Below are positions 1-28,869 of a stretch of 34,858 nucleotides of DNA, piece by piece (within the stretch, counting starts at the first letter, position 1; every line of letters begins with the position of its first letter). Location of the stretch: positions 1-34,858 of the IMG/VR virus record IMGVR_UViG_3300010150_000068. One strand, 5' to 3'. This DNA comes from a virus. The notes under the pieces are model-generated. The model saw only the letters and a program-made list of their open reading frames with translations, was not told where the DNA came from and ran no database searches. Made by a program: the position numbers and the translations under genes.

Positions 1-1
1 A

Positions 2-310
2 AAAGACAAACATGCTATTCTAGTAGATGATATTGTAGACTCAGGCGGAACATTATGCAATGCGGCCAAGGCGATTATGGACGCAGGTGCTAGTAGTGTT
101 CGTGCTTATATCACACATGGTGTATTAAGTAACGATGCATGTCAAAAAGTTGAGAAGAGTGTACTCAGTGAATTAGTAGTTACAGATACTATTCCTAATC
201 GTTGTCCTAAGAACTGTAAGAAAACAAGACAAGTAAGTGTTAGTAATCTATTTGGTGAAGCAATACGCAGAGTTACCAATGAAGAATCAGTAAGTAGTTT
301 GTTTGTATAA
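2..310 (+). CDS. prs: Ribose-phosphate pyrophosphokinase, C-terminal part (cut by window edge)
   Basis: The reading frame enters from the left edge, so only about the last 102 residues are present. The segment VDDIVDSGGTL is the PRPP-binding loop of ribose-phosphate pyrophosphokinase, which makes PRPP from ribose 5-phosphate and ATP for purine, pyrimidine and NAD synthesis. It is followed by the family's usual tail: AAKAIMDAGASSVRAYITHG, then a TDTIP strand and a short helical end. Large marine and vibrio T4-like phages are known to carry prs, sometimes with nicotinamide phosphoribosyltransferase; what lies upstream here is not visible. The stop codon overlaps the start of the next gene (TAATG), suggesting translational coupling. 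Identification is firm; completeness cannot be judged. Confidence 0.93.
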   Translation, partial: KDKHAILVDDIVDSGGTLCNAAKAIMDAGASSVRAYITHGVLSNDACQKVEKSVLSELVVTDTIPNRCPKNCKKTRQVSVSNLFGEAIRRVTNEESVSSLFV

Positions 311-1368: not shown

Positions 1369-1740
1369 TTAAAGTTTAATTTCTGTTAGACCATTTTCCC
1401 TATCAAGGTATTTAAAATCTATCTTAGTAGGGTTATATTTTTGTAACCAATCAAATACTACATTAGGATCAAACACTCCGCAAGTATACACATCAAGTTG
1501 TATCATAGCAGGATCTGTTTCGTCCCATGTGTGTATTATAACATGACTAGTTTCTATAATAGTAGCAACAGTCAACCCTCTATTACCTTTCATATTACAA
1601 TATTTGGCATATGGTCCCATTAGGATCTTCATACCTATTGCCTCTATCAAGGCTTTCACATCATTACTTGTAAGGGTTTCATCTGTTGGCGGATTAGTAA
1701 CTTCCGCTCGAATTATCACATGTTTGTGAACTAACTGCAT
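1369..1740 (-). CDS. speD: S-adenosylmethionine decarboxylase proenzyme
   Basis: A 123-residue protein, the usual size of bacterial/archaeal class 1B SpeD. The enzyme cuts itself at a serine to make a pyruvoyl cofactor, then decarboxylates S-adenosylmethionine to the aminopropyl donor for spermidine. The signature is present: ETSHVIIHTWDE, with predicted cleavage before Ser65 and His70 as the usual catalytic His, then QLDVYTCG with Cys87. These positions fit the Ser63/His68/Cys83 pattern of the Thermotoga enzyme. speD is a known auxiliary gene of marine phages; it could support polyamine packing of DNA or host metabolism. It lies convergent to the 1156 gene and divergent from the lipase. A perfect TATAAATA box is only seven bases from its presumed transcript start to ATG. 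Confidence 0.93.
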   Translation of the reverse strand: MQLVHKHVIIRAEVTNPPTDETLTSNDVKALIEAIGMKILMGPYAKYCNMKGNRGLTVATIIETSHVIIHTWDETDPAMIQLDVYTCGVFDPNVVFDWLQKYNPTKIDFKYLDRENGLTEIKL

Positions 1741-3058: not shown

Positions 3059-3157
3059 TGGCTCTGGGGGAAGGATTCGAACCTCCACGATAAATAATTT
3101 GCTGTCATTCATCACACGAGAAACAATCGTGCGTGTCTACCATTTCACCACCCCAGA
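3059..3157 (-). tRNA. Atypical long-variable-arm tRNA, anticodon GUU (Asn?)
   Basis: A 99-base tRNA. Acceptor TCTGGGG/CCCCAGA is perfect, discriminator G, CCA encoded. The D-arm (GTG...AAATGGTAGA...CAC) looks like tRNA-Leu. The anticodon stem CACGA/TCGTG closes the seven-base loop TTGTTTC, placing GUU at 34-36 and an unusual U at 37. The variable region is 28 bases: stem GATGAAT/ATTTATC (7 bp, one G-U) around an 11-base loop, longer than usual Leu or Ser arms. T-arm GGAGG-TTCGAAT-CCTTC is normal. U1-A72, G73 and GUU are features of tRNA-Asn; the D-arm and long arm are not. It lies six bases after the synthetase-like gene on the same strand. A tRNA-Leu call is disfavoured by the anticodon and by G73. 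Confidence 0.8.
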
Positions 3158-3163
3158 TTATTC

Positions 3164-3994
3164 TTATACTTTGTTGATCTTTTCTAGTGCAGGAATCATA
3201 CGTGTTACACCTATGCCTCCGCCTACTCTTTGAAAGAAGTCAAACTCTAAAAACTTTTCTAGTTCTGCTTCTACTCTTTCCTTACCAAACAGTTTGAATA
3301 GTAACTCTGCATACTCTCCGTCTACAATACTGTGGAATGTATCACGCATCATATCAACATCACATGAACGTTCTGCTGATCCTATTGTTTCCATACCACC
3401 TAAGATAACGTCCATCTTCTTTGCAGTTTCGCCGTCATCGTTTCTAGCCATGTTCCAGAAAGGTGATGTTAGTTCAGGGAAGTTTGTAATAAGTGTTTGA
3501 CCAAACTCTTTTTCCATTGCAAGTTCGTGTTGTGCTTCCATCTCTGTATCAGCACTTAGTCCAAAGTGTTGTTGCCATTCAGCATAGGTCTTTTCTGTAA
3601 TGTTGCCAAAGCCTAAGTATTCACATAGTTCATACTCCATTGCTTTTAGATCATCTACATTGCCTGGCATCTCAAATTCAAACATTGGAAATATTATATC
3701 ATGTCTGCCTGGTATTGCATTAGGCTCTTGTCTATAGGAAGTGGAGACACAAAAAAACCCCTTACTATCGGGGCTACTTAATAATTCATGTTCTAACCAC
3801 ATCTGGCCTGTTTGCGGCAATGGCCAAGTGTTGCCTGCGTATTGGTATGTTGCTACATTGAATGGATCTTCACATGCGGCAAGTATGCTTAGTCTGTTTT
3901 GGGTATGGACTTCTAAGAATCCTTTGTCCAAAAAAAATGACCTTAAAAGGCCAATTGTGTTTGTAAATTTTTGTGGGGATATTAACTGCGTCAT
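3164..3994 (-). CDS. Class II aminoacyl-tRNA synthetase-like catalytic core (Asn/Asp type)
   Basis: 276 residues from the ATG at 3994 (GGAAAAAAAG upstream); an in-frame TTG at 4036 is less likely. Class II signatures are visible. Motif 1-like GFLEVHTQ (residues 25-32) has Gln where Pro is usual. Motif 2 is STSYRQEPN...RHDIIFP (85-103) with the FRxE-type Arg88/Glu90 and then FEFEM. GMETIGSAER (200-209) recalls AsnRS. Motif 3 is GGGIGVTRM (258-266). There is no N-terminal OB anticodon-binding domain, so this is only the catalytic fold, as in asparagine synthetase AsnA, the archaeal AsnRS paralogue, or EpmA. A tRNA gene follows six bases downstream, favouring a tRNA substrate. AsnA-type asparagine synthesis or protein modification remain alternatives. 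Genes upstream on the same strand (zinc ribbon, two membrane proteins) may share its transcript. Confidence 0.8.
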   Translation of the reverse strand: MTQLISPQKFTNTIGLLRSFFLDKGFLEVHTQNRLSILAACEDPFNVATYQYAGNTWPLPQTGQMWLEHELLSSPDSKGFFCVSTSYRQEPNAIPGRHDIIFPMFEFEMPGNVDDLKAMEYELCEYLGFGNITEKTYAEWQQHFGLSADTEMEAQHELAMEKEFGQTLITNFPELTSPFWNMARNDDGETAKKMDVILGGMETIGSAERSCDVDMMRDTFHSIVDGEYAELLFKLFGKERVEAELEKFLEFDFFQRVGGGIGVTRMIPALEKINKV

Positions 3995-4853: not shown

Positions 4854-4882
4854 AATATAGCACAGGGCTATTAGGTTGTCAA
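4854..4882 (-). promoter_or_regulatory. Host-type promoter TTGACA-N17-TATATT
   Basis: -35 TTGACA at 4882-4877, -10 TATATT at 4859-4854, spacing exactly 17. It lies between tRNA-Glu and the membrane gene at 4817 and should drive the operon that includes the zinc ribbon and synthetase-like gene. Confidence 0.82.
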
Positions 4883-4892
4883 CCTTTTTTAT

Positions 4893-5504: not shown

Positions 5505-6198
5505 TGAAGGTGGAAACATATTCAAAGATCCAGAAACTAAAGAACCTGTAACACAGCGTATCAATCAAGCTGATGTTGATCCTACACTTGCATGGTTAGA
5601 AAAGATTACAGGACTACCACACAAAGATTTTAAATTAGGTAGTACAGGAATTAGAAGTACAAGTGGCGATATGGATATTGCTGTTAACCAAGACGAAGTT
5701 ACCAAAGACGAAATGGTTGCTAAACTTGCGGCGTGGGTACAAAAGAATCATCCAGGAGATGATCTTAAAAAGTGGATTAGAAAGAGTGGCATCAACGTAC
5801 ACTTCCTAACTCCAATCAATGGCAACCCTGAAGAAGGCTATGTACAAACAGACTTGATGTTTGGCGAGCCTGAGTTCATGAAGTTCGCACTCAAAGGCAG
5901 TGGCGACAACACTCCATACAAAGGACAACATAGAATGATCCTTATTAGCAGTATTGCTAAAGCACAAGGATACAAGTTTAGTAGTGGCGCAGGATTAGTA
6001 GATAGAATTACAAATCAAACTATATCAAAGAACCCAGATGAGATTGCAAAAACATTAATGGGTGATACTGCTACTGCAAAAGATATGGATAGTGTTGAAA
6101 CAATTATTGCAAAGATTAAAACAGATCCTAACTACGAAAACTTAATTAAAGACGCTAGAGATAATTTCGAAAAGAACGGACTAGAGTTACCCAAATGA
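5494..6198 (+). CDS. Predicted minimal nucleotidyltransferase (Pol-beta fold)
   Basis: 234 residues from the ATG at 5494, which overlaps the end of the previous gene; an earlier in-frame ATG (5461) lies deeper in that gene. The segment KLGSTGIRSTSGDMDIAV has the GS...DxD signature of the Pol-beta nucleotidyltransferase superfamily (CCA-adding, poly(A), kanamycin-type enzymes), and VQTDLMFG further on could supply the third Asp. The start MILNEGG carries L-x-E. It overlaps by four bases (ATGA) with the ligase-like gene, so the two are probably made together and may act on the same nucleic-acid end. Substrate unknown. Confidence 0.7.
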   Translation: MILNEGGNIFKDPETKEPVTQRINQADVDPTLAWLEKITGLPHKDFKLGSTGIRSTSGDMDIAVNQDEVTKDEMVAKLAAWVQKNHPGDDLKKWIRKSGINVHFLTPINGNPEEGYVQTDLMFGEPEFMKFALKGSGDNTPYKGQHRMILISSIAKAQGYKFSSGAGLVDRITNQTISKNPDEIAKTLMGDTATAKDMDSVETIIAKIKTDPNYENLIKDARDNFEKNGLELPK

Positions 6199-7337
6199 GA
6201 TTTAACGAAATAATAAACGAAGCAGAAGCTCGAATACAACATGCTGAAGACTTAATCTTCTTCCATGGTAGTGCAGGTGCCAAACGTGCATTGGATTCAA
6301 TTGCCAGCATGGGTACAGGAGGACACACCAGTGCAACAATTAAATGGGACGGATCTCCCGCAGTCATTTTTGGCCGCGATGAAAATGGAGAGTTCATACT
6401 TACAGACAAGTCAGGCTTTGGTGCAAAAGGATACGACGGCAAATCAAAAAGTGCTGATGACCTTGAACAAATGTTCCTCAACCGTAGTGGTGGAAAGAAC
6501 AGAGATAAACCAGGCTATGTAGCATTCGCAGGTAGAATGAAAGCTCTGTTTCCTATTGCAGAAAAAGCTGTTCCAATTGAACACAGAGGATTCTTTAAAG
6601 GCGACATGCTTTACTTTGATACACCAACTAACAACAAAGGCGTATTACAGTTTACTCCTAACACAGTAACTTACACAGTACAAGCAGACAGCGATGTAGG
6701 TAAGAAGATACTAGCAAGTCAGGCTGGTGTAGTTATTCACAGAGTAGTAGATGCAGAAGGTGCTGAAAGTCCTTTAAAAGATTACGACATGTTTCAAGGA
6801 TCAAAGCTATTAGTGTTACCTCCAGTGGTTGCACAAACAGCTCCAGAAGTTGATCTAACTAAACTAAAAAGTTTACAAGGTATTGTTGCTAAGAATGGTC
6901 CTGCTATTGATAGTCTACTAGACACAGCTACATTACAGCAGATGCAAGTTAGTGACTTTGCACAAATACTTTATGCTTATACAAATAGTAAAGTAGATTC
7001 AGGACTAGCTAACTTAGGTAAAGACTTTGTACAATGGTTAACATCTAGTAAAGTATCTAAGAAGAAACAAGCAAAGATTATTGATTATATTAAAACGCAC
7101 ATGAAGGCGTTTCAGGCAATGTGGCAAACTGTTTCAGGGATAATGGAAGTCAAGGACGACATTATTACACAAATGGAAAGCAAACAAACAGACATTAAGG
7201 CATCTATCGCAGGTAAGCCAGGAGGCGAGGGCTATGTTTTAGCTAACCCAGGTGGCGATATTAAACTAGTAAACCGCTCTGAATTTAGTAAAGCTAACAG
7301 AGCAATTAAACGGGAGAGCAAAAATGAAAGCATCTGA
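6195..7337 (+). CDS. Predicted nucleotidyl-transfer ligase-like protein (KWDGS motif)
   Basis: 380 residues. SATIKWDGSPAVIFGRD resembles motif I (KxDG) of ATP-dependent DNA/RNA ligases, where the Lys takes AMP. IEHRGFFKGDMLYFDT could be motif III and EGYVLANPGGDIKLVNRSEF resembles motif IV/V (EGxV...iKLV). Order and spacing fit the superfamily, but the long helical insert between them (residues ~210-340) is not typical of a known ligase. N-terminus MRFNEIINEAEARI carries I-x-E, like neighbouring genes. Coupled (ATGA) to the nucleotidyltransferase gene and overlapping the next one. A nucleic-acid end-healing and sealing pair is the obvious reading; it is inference. Confidence 0.65.
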   Translation: MRFNEIINEAEARIQHAEDLIFFHGSAGAKRALDSIASMGTGGHTSATIKWDGSPAVIFGRDENGEFILTDKSGFGAKGYDGKSKSADDLEQMFLNRSGGKNRDKPGYVAFAGRMKALFPIAEKAVPIEHRGFFKGDMLYFDTPTNNKGVLQFTPNTVTYTVQADSDVGKKILASQAGVVIHRVVDAEGAESPLKDYDMFQGSKLLVLPPVVAQTAPEVDLTKLKSLQGIVAKNGPAIDSLLDTATLQQMQVSDFAQILYAYTNSKVDSGLANLGKDFVQWLTSSKVSKKKQAKIIDYIKTHMKAFQAMWQTVSGIMEVKDDIITQMESKQTDIKASIAGKPGGEGYVLANPGGDIKLVNRSEFSKANRAIKRESKNESI

Positions 7338-26900: not shown

Positions 26901-27206
26901 ATGAAGTGTACTAAAGGCGACTTAGCCCAAATCATATATTCAGTACGTCCTGAGAATATTGGACGAATTGTCAAATGCGTAGAGTATATTGGTAAATTCA
27001 AACAAGGAGAACAGTTTGAGTTTAGAGGTATGCCTTGCCAATGTCCTGTTACAGACCACTATTGGTGGATTGAAGCAGAAGACCTATCAAGTTTATTTGG
27101 ACCTAGCCCAAGAGCATATATTGCCGACAGTTGGTTAGAACCTTTAAAGAATCCAAATCAAAAATCTAAAGAAAAAGAAAAAATACCGGTTGACATAGCC
27201 GCATAA
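26901..27206 (+). CDS. Protein of unknown function with paired Cys
   Basis: 101 residues from the ATG at 26901; earlier in-frame ATGs lie over the divergent gene's start and are rejected. MKCTKGDLAQIIYSVRPENIG starts a small barrel-like domain, followed by GMPCQCPVTDHYWWIEAEDL with a CxC pair. The end is Lys-rich. No family recognised. It lies just before the tmRNA gene; the tmRNA promoter's -35 is inside its last codons. Confidence 0.6.
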   Translation: MKCTKGDLAQIIYSVRPENIGRIVKCVEYIGKFKQGEQFEFRGMPCQCPVTDHYWWIEAEDLSSLFGPSPRAYIADSWLEPLKNPNQKSKEKEKIPVDIAA

Positions 27207-27220
27207 TGAGTGTATAAATA
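27190..27220 (+). promoter_or_regulatory. tmRNA promoter: TTGACA-N17-TATAAATA
   Basis: TTGACA at 27190-27195, 17-base spacer, TATAAA at 27213, which is also a perfect TATAAATA late box (27213-27220). Both early (host) and late (phage) polymerase should read it. Confidence 0.8.
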
Positions 27221-27287
27221 TAGCTGTAACGTTGAAGCAATTCAAACGCTATACAGGACTCGGGGGCAGTACCCGACGCCTCCACCA
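27221..27287 (+). ncRNA. ssrA: tmRNA acceptor piece (permuted, two-piece form)
   Basis: The 3' part of the tRNA-like domain comes first, as in alphaproteobacterial permuted ssrA. The T-arm is TCGGG-GGCAGTA-CCCGA, with the loop sequence of two-piece tmRNAs. The acceptor 3' strand CGCCTCC is followed by A and an encoded CCA ending at 27287. CGCCTCC pairs with GGGGGCG at 27368, with a G-U as third pair, the alanine identity element. The exact 5' end is set by processing or the promoter start; it is not sharply defined. Confidence 0.88.
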
Positions 27288-27367
27288 TAAACACATGAGA
27301 GTAGATACACCTGCTTTTCTGTGTATAGGACAAGACCTCGAAAGGGTGCAAGTCGTGTGTTTATGAT
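27288..27367 (+). ncRNA. ssrA: Intervening segment of pre-tmRNA
   Basis: 80 bases removed in permuted tmRNAs. Its ends extend the acceptor helix: TAAACACA (27288-27295) pairs with TGTGTTTA near its 3' end. This continuous helix is strong evidence that the two pieces come from one folded precursor. Confidence 0.78.
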
Positions 27368-27518
27368 GGGGGCGAACTAGGATCGACTGGTAGTTAATAG
27401 AGTTAGTGGAGTTTCCCGGATCTAAGCACGGTTATCGCGAAGAAAACTATAGACGCAAACGAAAACTTTGCTCTTGCGGCCTAGTAATTAACTAGGTTAC
27501 GGGGTTGGCAACTTACCT
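27368..27518 (+). ncRNA. ssrA: tmRNA coding piece, tag (A)ANENFALAA
   Basis: Starts GGGGGCGAACTAGGATCGAC, the standard 5' end of tmRNA (acceptor strand plus D-loop). The resume codon is GCA at 27455 (after AGAC), followed by AAC GAA AAC TTT GCT CTT GCG GCC and stop TAG (27482-27484). The tag would be AANENFALAA with the charged Ala, ending in ALAA as needed for ClpXP/ClpAP recognition. CCTAGT/ACTAGG forms the hairpin around the stop. CTG-G-TAG near the 5' end can pair with CTA-TA-CAG in the acceptor piece. End set by the terminator that follows; pseudoknots were not traced. Confidence 0.9.
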
Positions 27519-27542
27519 GGCAACAGAAAAGTTGCGTTTTTT
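27519..27542 (+). terminator. tmRNA terminator
   Basis: GCAAC-AGAAAA-GTTGC followed by GTTTTTT. Confidence 0.88.
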
Positions 27543-27813: not shown

Positions 27814-28869
27814 ATGCCACCACGTAATCATAAGAGTTGGTTAGCACAACCAAACGTAGAATCAATTAGCAGTTCAGCATATAACGATCCAGAAGTATTT
27901 GCACAAGAGCAAGAACGTATCTTTTCAAAGGTATGGGTGCCAATGTGTCATATCTCAGAGATGTATAACAAACTAGACTACCGAACAACACAGATAGCAG
28001 GTGTTAATGTTATTGCATACAACACAGGCGATGGTGTTCGAGCATATCGTAACTATGGCAGTTGGGCACCTAGTGGTACGCTAGGAGCACCTATTGTAAC
28101 TGTTGAACCACAGTTGCATTGTGAAGTAAAGCACGGAGGTATGGTATGGGTAACACTAGATCCTAATCCAACGCAAAGTGTAGAACAATGGACAGCAGGT
28201 GCATTTGATTGTATCGCTGATGCTATTGACACAGAAGAAATGGAAGTGTTTCATTATCATAAGGCAGTAATAAATACCAACTACAAGTTATGGCATGATA
28301 CTAACAGTGAATTCTATCACGACTTCATGCACTACTTTAATAGAGTAAGTGGATTCAACGATGAGTACTTCGCACGTAAAAATTTACCTTTTGATAATGG
28401 GCATGTTAACGTGTCTAGTTTTACTGTCAACTATGAGGAGTACGAGGGCTTTGAAGATAGAGGAGAGTTATCATTTCCAAACTTGCCGCCCAATCAATGG
28501 TACATGGTCGATTTGTTCCCCGGCTTCAACTTTAACCTTCGAGGCTCCGCCTACCGTAGTGATTCAGTTACTCCCCTAAGTTGTAACAAAGTTCTTATTG
28601 AGTTTAGAGGTTACGGACTACGCAAAGATACACCCAAAGAAAGACTAACACGTATCAAACATCACAACAGTATATGGGGACCGTTCGGACGTAACCTACA
28701 CGAAGACCTAATTGGTGTAGCAGGACAAGGAACAACAATGCGTGAAGGCACAGAAGCACGTAACATACTTCATGGTAGACATGAAAATGGAACTATACAT
28801 GATGAAGTAGGTATGCGTCATTACTATTCAGAATGGGGCAAGTATTTGGATGTTGACCCGTATCAGTAA
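27814..28869 (+). CDS. Ring-hydroxylating-oxygenase-like protein lacking the Rieske centre
   Basis: 351 residues. Residues 15-50 (SAYNDPEVFAQEQERIFSKV) match the lead-in of Rieske non-haem iron oxygenase alpha subunits. The Rieske ligands CxH...CxxH are absent and that part seems shortened: RAYRNYGSWAPSG runs directly into PQLHCEVKHGGMVWVTLDP, which normally comes after the cluster. The mononuclear-iron site survives: SEFYHDFMHYFN (His169 and His173; the usual spacing is one longer) and LHEDLIGVAGQ (the Asp-bearing helix). It could use another electron source or be a non-redox relative. Stand-alone gene, not near a reductase or ferredoxin. The reading frame is intact. Confidence 0.75.
   Translation: MPPRNHKSWLAQPNVESISSSAYNDPEVFAQEQERIFSKVWVPMCHISEMYNKLDYRTTQIAGVNVIAYNTGDGVRAYRNYGSWAPSGTLGAPIVTVEPQLHCEVKHGGMVWVTLDPNPTQSVEQWTAGAFDCIADAIDTEEMEVFHYHKAVINTNYKLWHDTNSEFYHDFMHYFNRVSGFNDEYFARKNLPFDNGHVNVSSFTVNYEEYEGFEDRGELSFPNLPPNQWYMVDLFPGFNFNLRGSAYRSDSVTPLSCNKVLIEFRGYGLRKDTPKERLTRIKHHNSIWGPFGRNLHEDLIGVAGQGTTMREGTEARNILHGRHENGTIHDEVGMRHYYSEWGKYLDVDPYQ

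Follow-up and report, generated by a model that had tools for sequence, protein, structure and literature searches.

An AsnRS-like catalytic core linked to a long-arm tRNA-Asn in marine phages: a candidate module for handling asparagine outside normal decoding

Why should a phage keep a synthetase-like gene that has no anticodon-binding domain directly ahead of a tRNA with a long variable arm? The question is raised by the IMG/VR virus record IMGVR_UViG_3300010150_000068, analysed here over positions 1 to 34,858 (34,858 nt; hereafter the window), for which a private aminoacyl-tRNA synthetase/tRNA pair had been proposed (hereafter the original prediction). The features of the window that bear on the question, together with two further genes, are collected in Table 1.

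Table 1. Coordinates in the window of the genes and tRNA elements discussed, with the basis of each assignment
Feature	Position	Strand	Basis
Ribose-phosphate pyrophosphokinase (PRPP synthetase), 3' part	1..310	+	PF14572 93.7 bits, PF00156 35.4 bits
S-adenosylmethionine decarboxylase gene	1369-1740	-	PF02675
tRNA with long variable arm and Asn-type identity set, CCA encoded, 99 nt	3059..3157	-	ARAGORN, Rfam, covariance model, covariation
A72 and discriminator G73	3062..3063	-	Invariant; A72 pairs with U1 at 3157
Variable region, 28 nt with 7-bp stem	3087..3114	-	Relatives 13-32 nt, stem always present
U37	3121..3121	-	Pyrimidine in 77/86 distinct enzyme-linked tRNAs
Anticodon GUU (positions 34-36)	3122..3124	-	Invariant in 86/86 distinct relatives
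AsnRS-like class II catalytic core protein	3164..3994	-	276 aa from ATG; PF00152; phrog_29758
Ring-hydroxylating oxygenase alpha subunit	27814-28869	+	PF00848

The enzyme and the tRNA

The sole Pfam match of the enzyme is PF00152, the core of the class II D/K/N synthetases, at 59 bits, and its PHROG family (phrog_29758, 428 bits) bears the function label "unknown". The ORF begins at motif 1, leaving no room for an OB-fold anticodon-binding domain, and the AlphaFold (AF2) model, based on an alignment of 57 relatives and having a mean pLDDT of 92, consists of the core only. The solved structures closest to the model are those of AsnRS and AspRS, the best being 1x54 (AsnRS, TM 0.79), with 9sh8 as a second AsnRS structure among the best fold matches. 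The enzyme is a bare AsnRS-type catalytic core, and it lacks an anticodon-binding domain, as had been claimed from the letters of the window.

In a profile alignment the substrate and ATP residues of AsnRS are retained, namely E42, Q64, E68, R88, E90, H98, E202, R209 and R265. Both the Asn-pocket Glu of the Gln-Leu-x-x-Glu strand and the Arg after the GG motif are present, with E68 and R209 corresponding to E213 and R392 in the Asn pocket of AsnRS, and the ATP residues of motifs 2 and 3 (R88, E90, H98, E202, R265) also align. Because these residues are retained, the enzyme is predicted to bind Asn (or Asp) and ATP. The proline of class II motif 1 is replaced by Gln (Q32) in at least 97% of the phage members and of the cellular members, and the phage enzymes are acidic, with a mean pI of about 4.7.

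The curated family models are not reached: the enzyme scores 34.4 bits against a cut-off of 342.6 for AsnRS (TIGR00457), 20.1 bits against 389 for the AS-AR asparagine synthetase (NF005055), with 15-24 bits against 389/309 for the AS-AR-type models NF005055/NF005054 as a whole, and, for EpmA/GenX, 16.9 against 264 (NF006828) and 14.6 against 286.9 (TIGR00462), while the AsnA Pfam family gives no match. An AsnA-like or EpmA-like identity, which the original prediction had held in reserve, is rejected on these scores.

The 99-base tRNA foreseen behind the gene is indeed there on the same strand, with a gap of 6 nt after the stop codon of the enzyme gene. It is detected by ARAGORN and by Rfam RF00005 (46.7 bits), and a covariance model, which was built from 19 sequences including this tRNA itself, matches it at 104 bits. 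The acceptor stem is UCUGGGG/CCCCAGA and the D arm is Leu-like. In the cloverleaf common to the relatives, the anticodon stem CACGA/UCGUG encloses the loop UUGUUUC, giving the anticodon GUU and U37, and the variable region forms the stem GAUGAAU/AUUUAUC, of 7 bp with one G-U. The anticodon CUC (Glu) reported by ARAGORN is rejected, since the stem and loop common to all relatives give GUU; the misreading was probably caused by the long variable arm.

The identity elements and the arm described at the outset also hold across the relatives. U1-A72, G73 and GUU are unchanged in 86/86 distinct tRNAs, and in a covariation test with 26 distinct sequences all 23 pairs are 100% standard, those of the variable arm included, with changes on both sides in 19 of them; U1-A72 is the only acceptor pair without variation. 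At the apex of the long variable arms (e.g. in L014, L018 and L040) a conserved motif recurs, (C)UGCAA or UCGCAAA and then UAUUUA, which the short arms do not have. Since the variable region spans 13-32 nt across the relatives, every one with a stem, the arm is not a fixed recognition ruler, and its proposed part as the recognition element of the enzyme, in the manner of SerRS, is weakened.

In bacteria, Asn identity resides in the anticodon and G73, and where Asn is formed on the tRNA itself, GatCAB reads U1-A72 (PMC9976931, PMC4206432). Based on this published identity, the conserved positions of the tRNA are the set for charging, with G73 and GUU serving AsnRS or a non-discriminating AspRS, and for amidation, and the relaxed ones are the decoding features. 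Among the traits of bacterial tRNA-Asn, the linked tRNA has GUU, G73 and U1-A72, and it lacks the short variable loop and usually also A37.

Linkage in viruses and relaxation at position 37

Relatives of the enzyme are encoded in more than 600 IMG/VR loci, of which the best 80 were taken as a first set; a second set, seeded with the protein of cyanophage P-SSM7, contributes 76 loci in which the sequence extends past the gene. The tRNA lies directly behind the enzyme gene in 152 of the 154 assessable loci of the two sets, counts that are weakened, like those below, by contig ends, metagenome bins and the relatedness of the phages. In the first set a complete tRNA begins 4-10 nt behind the gene in 76/78 loci and is absent behind it in L039 and L063, with L057 excluded because it ends inside the gene and L060 because only the 5' half of the tRNA is seen before the contig end. 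In the second set the tRNA is present in 76/76 loci, 63 parsed by script and 13 read from the printed sequence, the latter having been missed by the script because of C33, a variant T-loop, an unusual stem or, in two loci, a cut by the contig end. The cultured cyanophages P-SSM7, P-SSM2 and P-SSM5 have the same tRNA directly behind the gene; it is annotated as tRNA-Asn in P-SSM7 and P-SSM5, and in P-SSM2 the annotated position of tRNA-Asn differs and the sequence matches.

The reverse sampling gives the same picture. A scan of IMG/VR with a pattern that combines the D arm, the anticodon and the T loop and includes a long gap, and that is blind to the enzyme, gives 120 matches. Of these, 103 immediately follow the enzyme gene, 2 are at most about 250 nt from it, 6 are at contig edges and 9 have no enzyme nearby, so that 105 of the 114 assessable tRNAs adjoin the enzyme. 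Seven of the nine records of the last kind, which may be fragments, were searched whole and contain no enzyme. The linkage persists over enzyme divergence of up to 40%, the gap being 4-10 nt in most loci and the neighbour genes varying. It is old and nearly obligatory in phages. Enzyme genes without the tRNA in related phages, which had been named in advance as evidence against a pair, occur in L039 and L063 and in the jumbo-phage records discussed below, and nearly all other loci are linked.

Some further observations on these loci are as follows. In L090 (about 4863-4885) only ATCCGGGGTCCCCCGGAGCCA lies behind the enzyme gene, looking like a tRNA with the middle deleted. In close relatives, as in L001 (about 5981-6358), a gene that by eye is IscU-like, i.e., for an iron-sulfur scaffold, lies directly behind the tRNA. 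The window also contains a permuted two-piece tmRNA of the alphaproteobacterial type at 27186-27538 (+) (Rfam RF01849, RF04321); permuted tmRNAs are near the enzyme in L040, L047, L052, L053, L059, L062 and L064 too, as well as in L073/L074, where the predicted tag is unusually long.

Decoding is harmed, as a rule, by a pyrimidine at position 37, and here the linked tRNAs depart from ordinary ones. In the tRNA-first scan, pyrimidine-37 is found in 94 tRNAs with the enzyme and in 0 without it, and A37 in 11 with and 9 without (Fisher p = 2.6e-8, in which the related phages are not independent). Among other distinct phage tRNAs of the same loci, pyrimidine-37 occurs in 2/163, 7 enzyme-linked GUU tRNAs missed by the filter having been removed by hand from this baseline; the suspicion that U37 is odd was well placed. 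The anticodon loops of the 86 distinct tRNAs are CUGUUUA (45), UUGUUUC (23), CUGUUAA (9), CUGUUUC (7) and CUGUUCA (2), and C33 is present in nine further loci (CCGUUUA). All nine enzyme-free phages with a long-arm tRNA-Asn (GUU) have the normal A37 (L339, L343, L353, L356, L360, L361, L368, L409 and L410), and some of these tRNA genes sit in large tRNA arrays; class II tRNA-Asn thus seems to be a wider phage oddity. Relaxation of the decoding features of the tRNA (the purine at 37 and sometimes U33) goes hand in hand with the presence of the enzyme and is not seen without it. Pyrimidine-37 and the occasional C33 suit codon reading poorly, and a tRNA with U37 may still decode.

Because the two independent samplings agree and pyrimidine-37 is tolerated only with the enzyme, the enzyme and the tRNA almost certainly form a real functional unit. 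A coincidental mobile tRNA cluster beside an unrelated metabolic gene is very improbable: phage tRNAs do cluster, and P-SSM7 has three other tRNAs just upstream of the gene, but the linkage is near 100% in both samplings, the gap is constant in most loci despite the changing neighbours and the association of pyrimidine-37 with the enzyme is perfect. Chance adjacency, and with it the unrelated tRNA that had been named as an alternative, is therefore rejected.

These data also bear on the private translation pair, in which the core enzyme would charge its own long-arm tRNA with asparagine, independently of host AspRS/GatCAB or of damage to host tRNAs, with the loss of A37 and the long arm repelling host enzymes and nucleases. 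We regard this as a possible explanation, though on the unlikely side. Direct charging for translation would be the simplest chemistry and the strict GUU fits the decoding of AAY, but pyrimidine-37 and C33 are poor for decoding and Asn makes up just 5.3% of the codons sampled in this record. The enzyme has an AsnRS-like pocket, but it is a core-only protein of pI about 4.7 with no RNA-binding domain, and its tRNA-less cellular relatives share the active-site residues. The obligatory linkage is what a pair would require, and escape from host anticodon nucleases by altered anticodon loops has been proposed for phage tRNAs (PMC10264068), but phages free of the enzyme use a long-arm tRNA-Asn as well, so the long-arm tRNA body does not require a private synthetase. 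Of the original prediction, the co-inheritance, the covarying variable arm and the core enzyme without an anticodon domain stand, while the enzymes without the tRNA in cells and jumbo phages and the relaxed decoding features argue against a pair dedicated to translation.

Relatives without the tRNA and the neighbouring pyrimidine genes

A scan of GTDB gives 80 loci with relatives of the enzyme, mostly from Patescibacteria, with further hosts among Midichloriaceae, Pasteurella atlantica (complete chromosome), gammaproteobacteria, Myxococcota, Dependentiae, Coatesbacteria and DPANN archaea. The cellular relatives are 50-60% identical to the phage enzyme, the phage-invariant positions are the same in them, and no active-site switch between phage and cellular enzymes was found. 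In a search with an anticodon-specific pattern, the tRNA is unmatched in 45/50 whole GTDB genomes that have the enzyme; the five GTDB loci with the tRNA are phage contigs in bins (L087, L088, L089, L094 and L131). The first covariance model, R1, was rejected as a detector for cellular genomes, as most of what it detects is ordinary tRNA-Leu. The jumbo-phage records LR756501 and LR756508 (sizes 735 and 484 kb) have the enzyme and no match to the tRNA pattern; of their two enzymes, used as queries against viral contigs, one retrieved no relatives and the other retrieved two. The tree groups the main tRNA-linked phages in a single clade (support 99) nested among cellular lines, with L094 and L131 as a second tRNA-linked branch. 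Since the tRNA-less relatives keep the same active-site residues, the tRNA is not needed for the basic chemistry of the enzyme.

In 16 cellular loci pyrE, pyrF or pyrD lies near the enzyme gene, often in an apparent operon (L095, L096, L098, L107, L108, L109, L116, L118, L125, L136, L140, L146, L156, L159, L160 and L163). The gene order is enzyme-pyrF-pyrE in L118, enzyme-pyrF-pyrE-pyrD-prs in L108, L109 and L125, and enzyme-pyrE-pyrF in L156, L159, L160 and L163, with the PyrF of L118 and the PyrD of L108 both confirmed. Among 18 cellular genomes, PyrD is over the cut-off in 12 and PyrB, PyrC and CarB in 2 each; PyrD is kept with none of CarB, PyrB and PyrC over the cut-off in 10/18, mostly metagenome bins, the absence being firm only for the complete Pasteurella atlantica chromosome. 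In the control genomes, PyrB, PyrC and CarB are matched in 14/14. The cellular AsnRS-core proteins beside pyr genes are thus candidates for a further route to dihydroorotate; in the literature, as far as it was covered, no account of a bypass of PyrB/PyrC was found.

An operon with PyrD/E/F in the absence of CarB, PyrB and PyrC is seen for several cellular homologs, not for the present phage. On the phage side, L088 has the order pyrD-enzyme-tRNA (PF01180, 46 bits, above the cut-off), and L094 has a PyrD-like gene 1 kb downstream (23.4 bits, below the cut-off). In the flanking sequence retrieved, 16 viral loci have PyrE-like genes and 7 have prs, this record among the latter (the others being L001, L003-L006 and L065), and the PRPP synthetase fragment of the window may belong to the same set of nucleotide-supply genes. 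In P-SSM7 an orotate phosphoribosyltransferase is encoded at a different place in the genome. The complete pyr pathway is absent from most phage loci, and the pyr genes near the phage enzyme could reflect the general nucleotide metabolism of large phages.

The cellular relatives also weigh on two other explanations. It is improbable that the enzyme is an archaeal AS-AR-type asparagine synthetase that raises the Asn supply beside an extra tRNA-Asn doing the same, with no direct contact between the two. Like AS-AR, the enzyme is an AsnRS-derived core without the OB domain, and it does match NF005055/NF005054 weakly, but the scores are far under the cut-offs, the cellular genes are linked to pyr genes, 12/22 cellular genomes with the enzyme already have AsnB, and the confinement of pyrimidine-37 to enzyme-linked tRNAs is left unexplained. 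The AsnB pattern is not clean, and free asparagine supply was rejected as the rule for the need of the tRNA; no simple rule ties the enzyme to asparagine supply.

Still less probable is an RNA-modifying paralog that attaches an amino acid to an anticodon-loop base of the linked tRNA. A precedent is GluQRS, a core-only GluRS, which glutamylates Q34 of tRNA-Asp. A core-only synthetase with a partner tRNA would fit, as would the invariance of G34 while its neighbours vary, but GUU aside the loop has no conserved base, and the cellular relatives, placed with pyr genes, have no partner tRNA.

Proposed role and comparison with known systems

Our favoured explanation, to which we give a probability of only about 0.4, is that the enzyme and the tRNA-Asn are a co-inherited module that handles asparagine outside normal decoding. 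The tRNA would acquire its asparagine through host AspRS and GatCAB, through host AsnRS or through the phage enzyme, and the user or recipient of this tRNA-borne asparagine would be the phage enzyme, not the ribosome; this role of the tRNA is read from its conserved nucleotides. The end purpose, of which we are least sure, may be the supply of pyrimidines during infection. Of dihydroorotate, the atoms N1, N3, C4, C5 and C6 and the carboxyl are already present in asparagine, and the ATP-dependent addition of one carbonyl to asparagine would give the PyrD substrate. Pyrimidine supply is the leading guess because dihydroorotate differs from asparagine by one added carbonyl and because of the gene neighbourhoods of the cellular relatives. 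The more specific proposal, that the tRNA is a largely non-decoding Asn carrier for the synthesis of dihydroorotate (or a precursor) without CarAB, PyrB and PyrC, its cellular counterpart working without a special tRNA, is doubtful. Regarding the tRNA as a mere supplier of asparagine leaves the tight genetic coupling and the long arm not fully explained.

If the side pathway is true, phages would have recruited a tRNA as a metabolic cofactor, and a second question would arise, namely whether, in many bacteria and archaea, an AsnRS-like enzyme stands in place of the three enzymes that open the pyrimidine pathway. If instead the private pair is true, a natural, abundant and very small synthetase without an anticodon domain would provide a ready-made orthogonal pair. 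By either reading, a common marine phage module gains a testable function.

The nearest described relative is the "tRNA ligase" T4-GC194 of cyanophages P-SSM2, P-SSM5 and P-SSM7 (PMC3037559). It belongs to the same family, is 64-67% identical and has a tRNA-Asn directly behind the gene. The literature, in the part covered, gives the label only and is silent on the pairing with the tRNA, on the long arm and on the cellular relatives, and no other account of the enzyme-tRNA pairing was found in it; the module is widespread in marine phages and has so far been labelled only "tRNA ligase".

AsnRS is the best fold match and shares with the phage enzyme the amino-acid and ATP residues and a partner tRNA with the bacterial Asn identity set, but the phage enzyme has no N-terminal OB anticodon domain and has Q32 in place of the motif 1 proline, and the variable arm of its partner tRNA is long, with position 37 usually being U. 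The archaeal AS-AR (PRK06462) is likewise an AsnRS-derived core without an anticodon domain, whereas the phage enzyme is far below the cut-off of that family and its genes are tRNA-linked in phages and pyr-linked in cells.

In the PylRS/tRNA-Pyl system, a special class II synthetase core and a special tRNA are inherited together and constitute an orthogonal pair. The co-inheritance of a synthetase core and a tRNA is common to both systems, but here the anticodon is the sense GUU rather than amber, the pocket is AsnRS-like and tRNA-less relatives are common. Finally, non-proteinogenic tRNAs serve side pathways, as the Gly-tRNA of S. aureus does for the cell wall. They resemble the phage tRNA in that the charging identity is kept and features for the ribosome are lost, with the difference that here a phage tRNA is linked to a synthetase-like gene.
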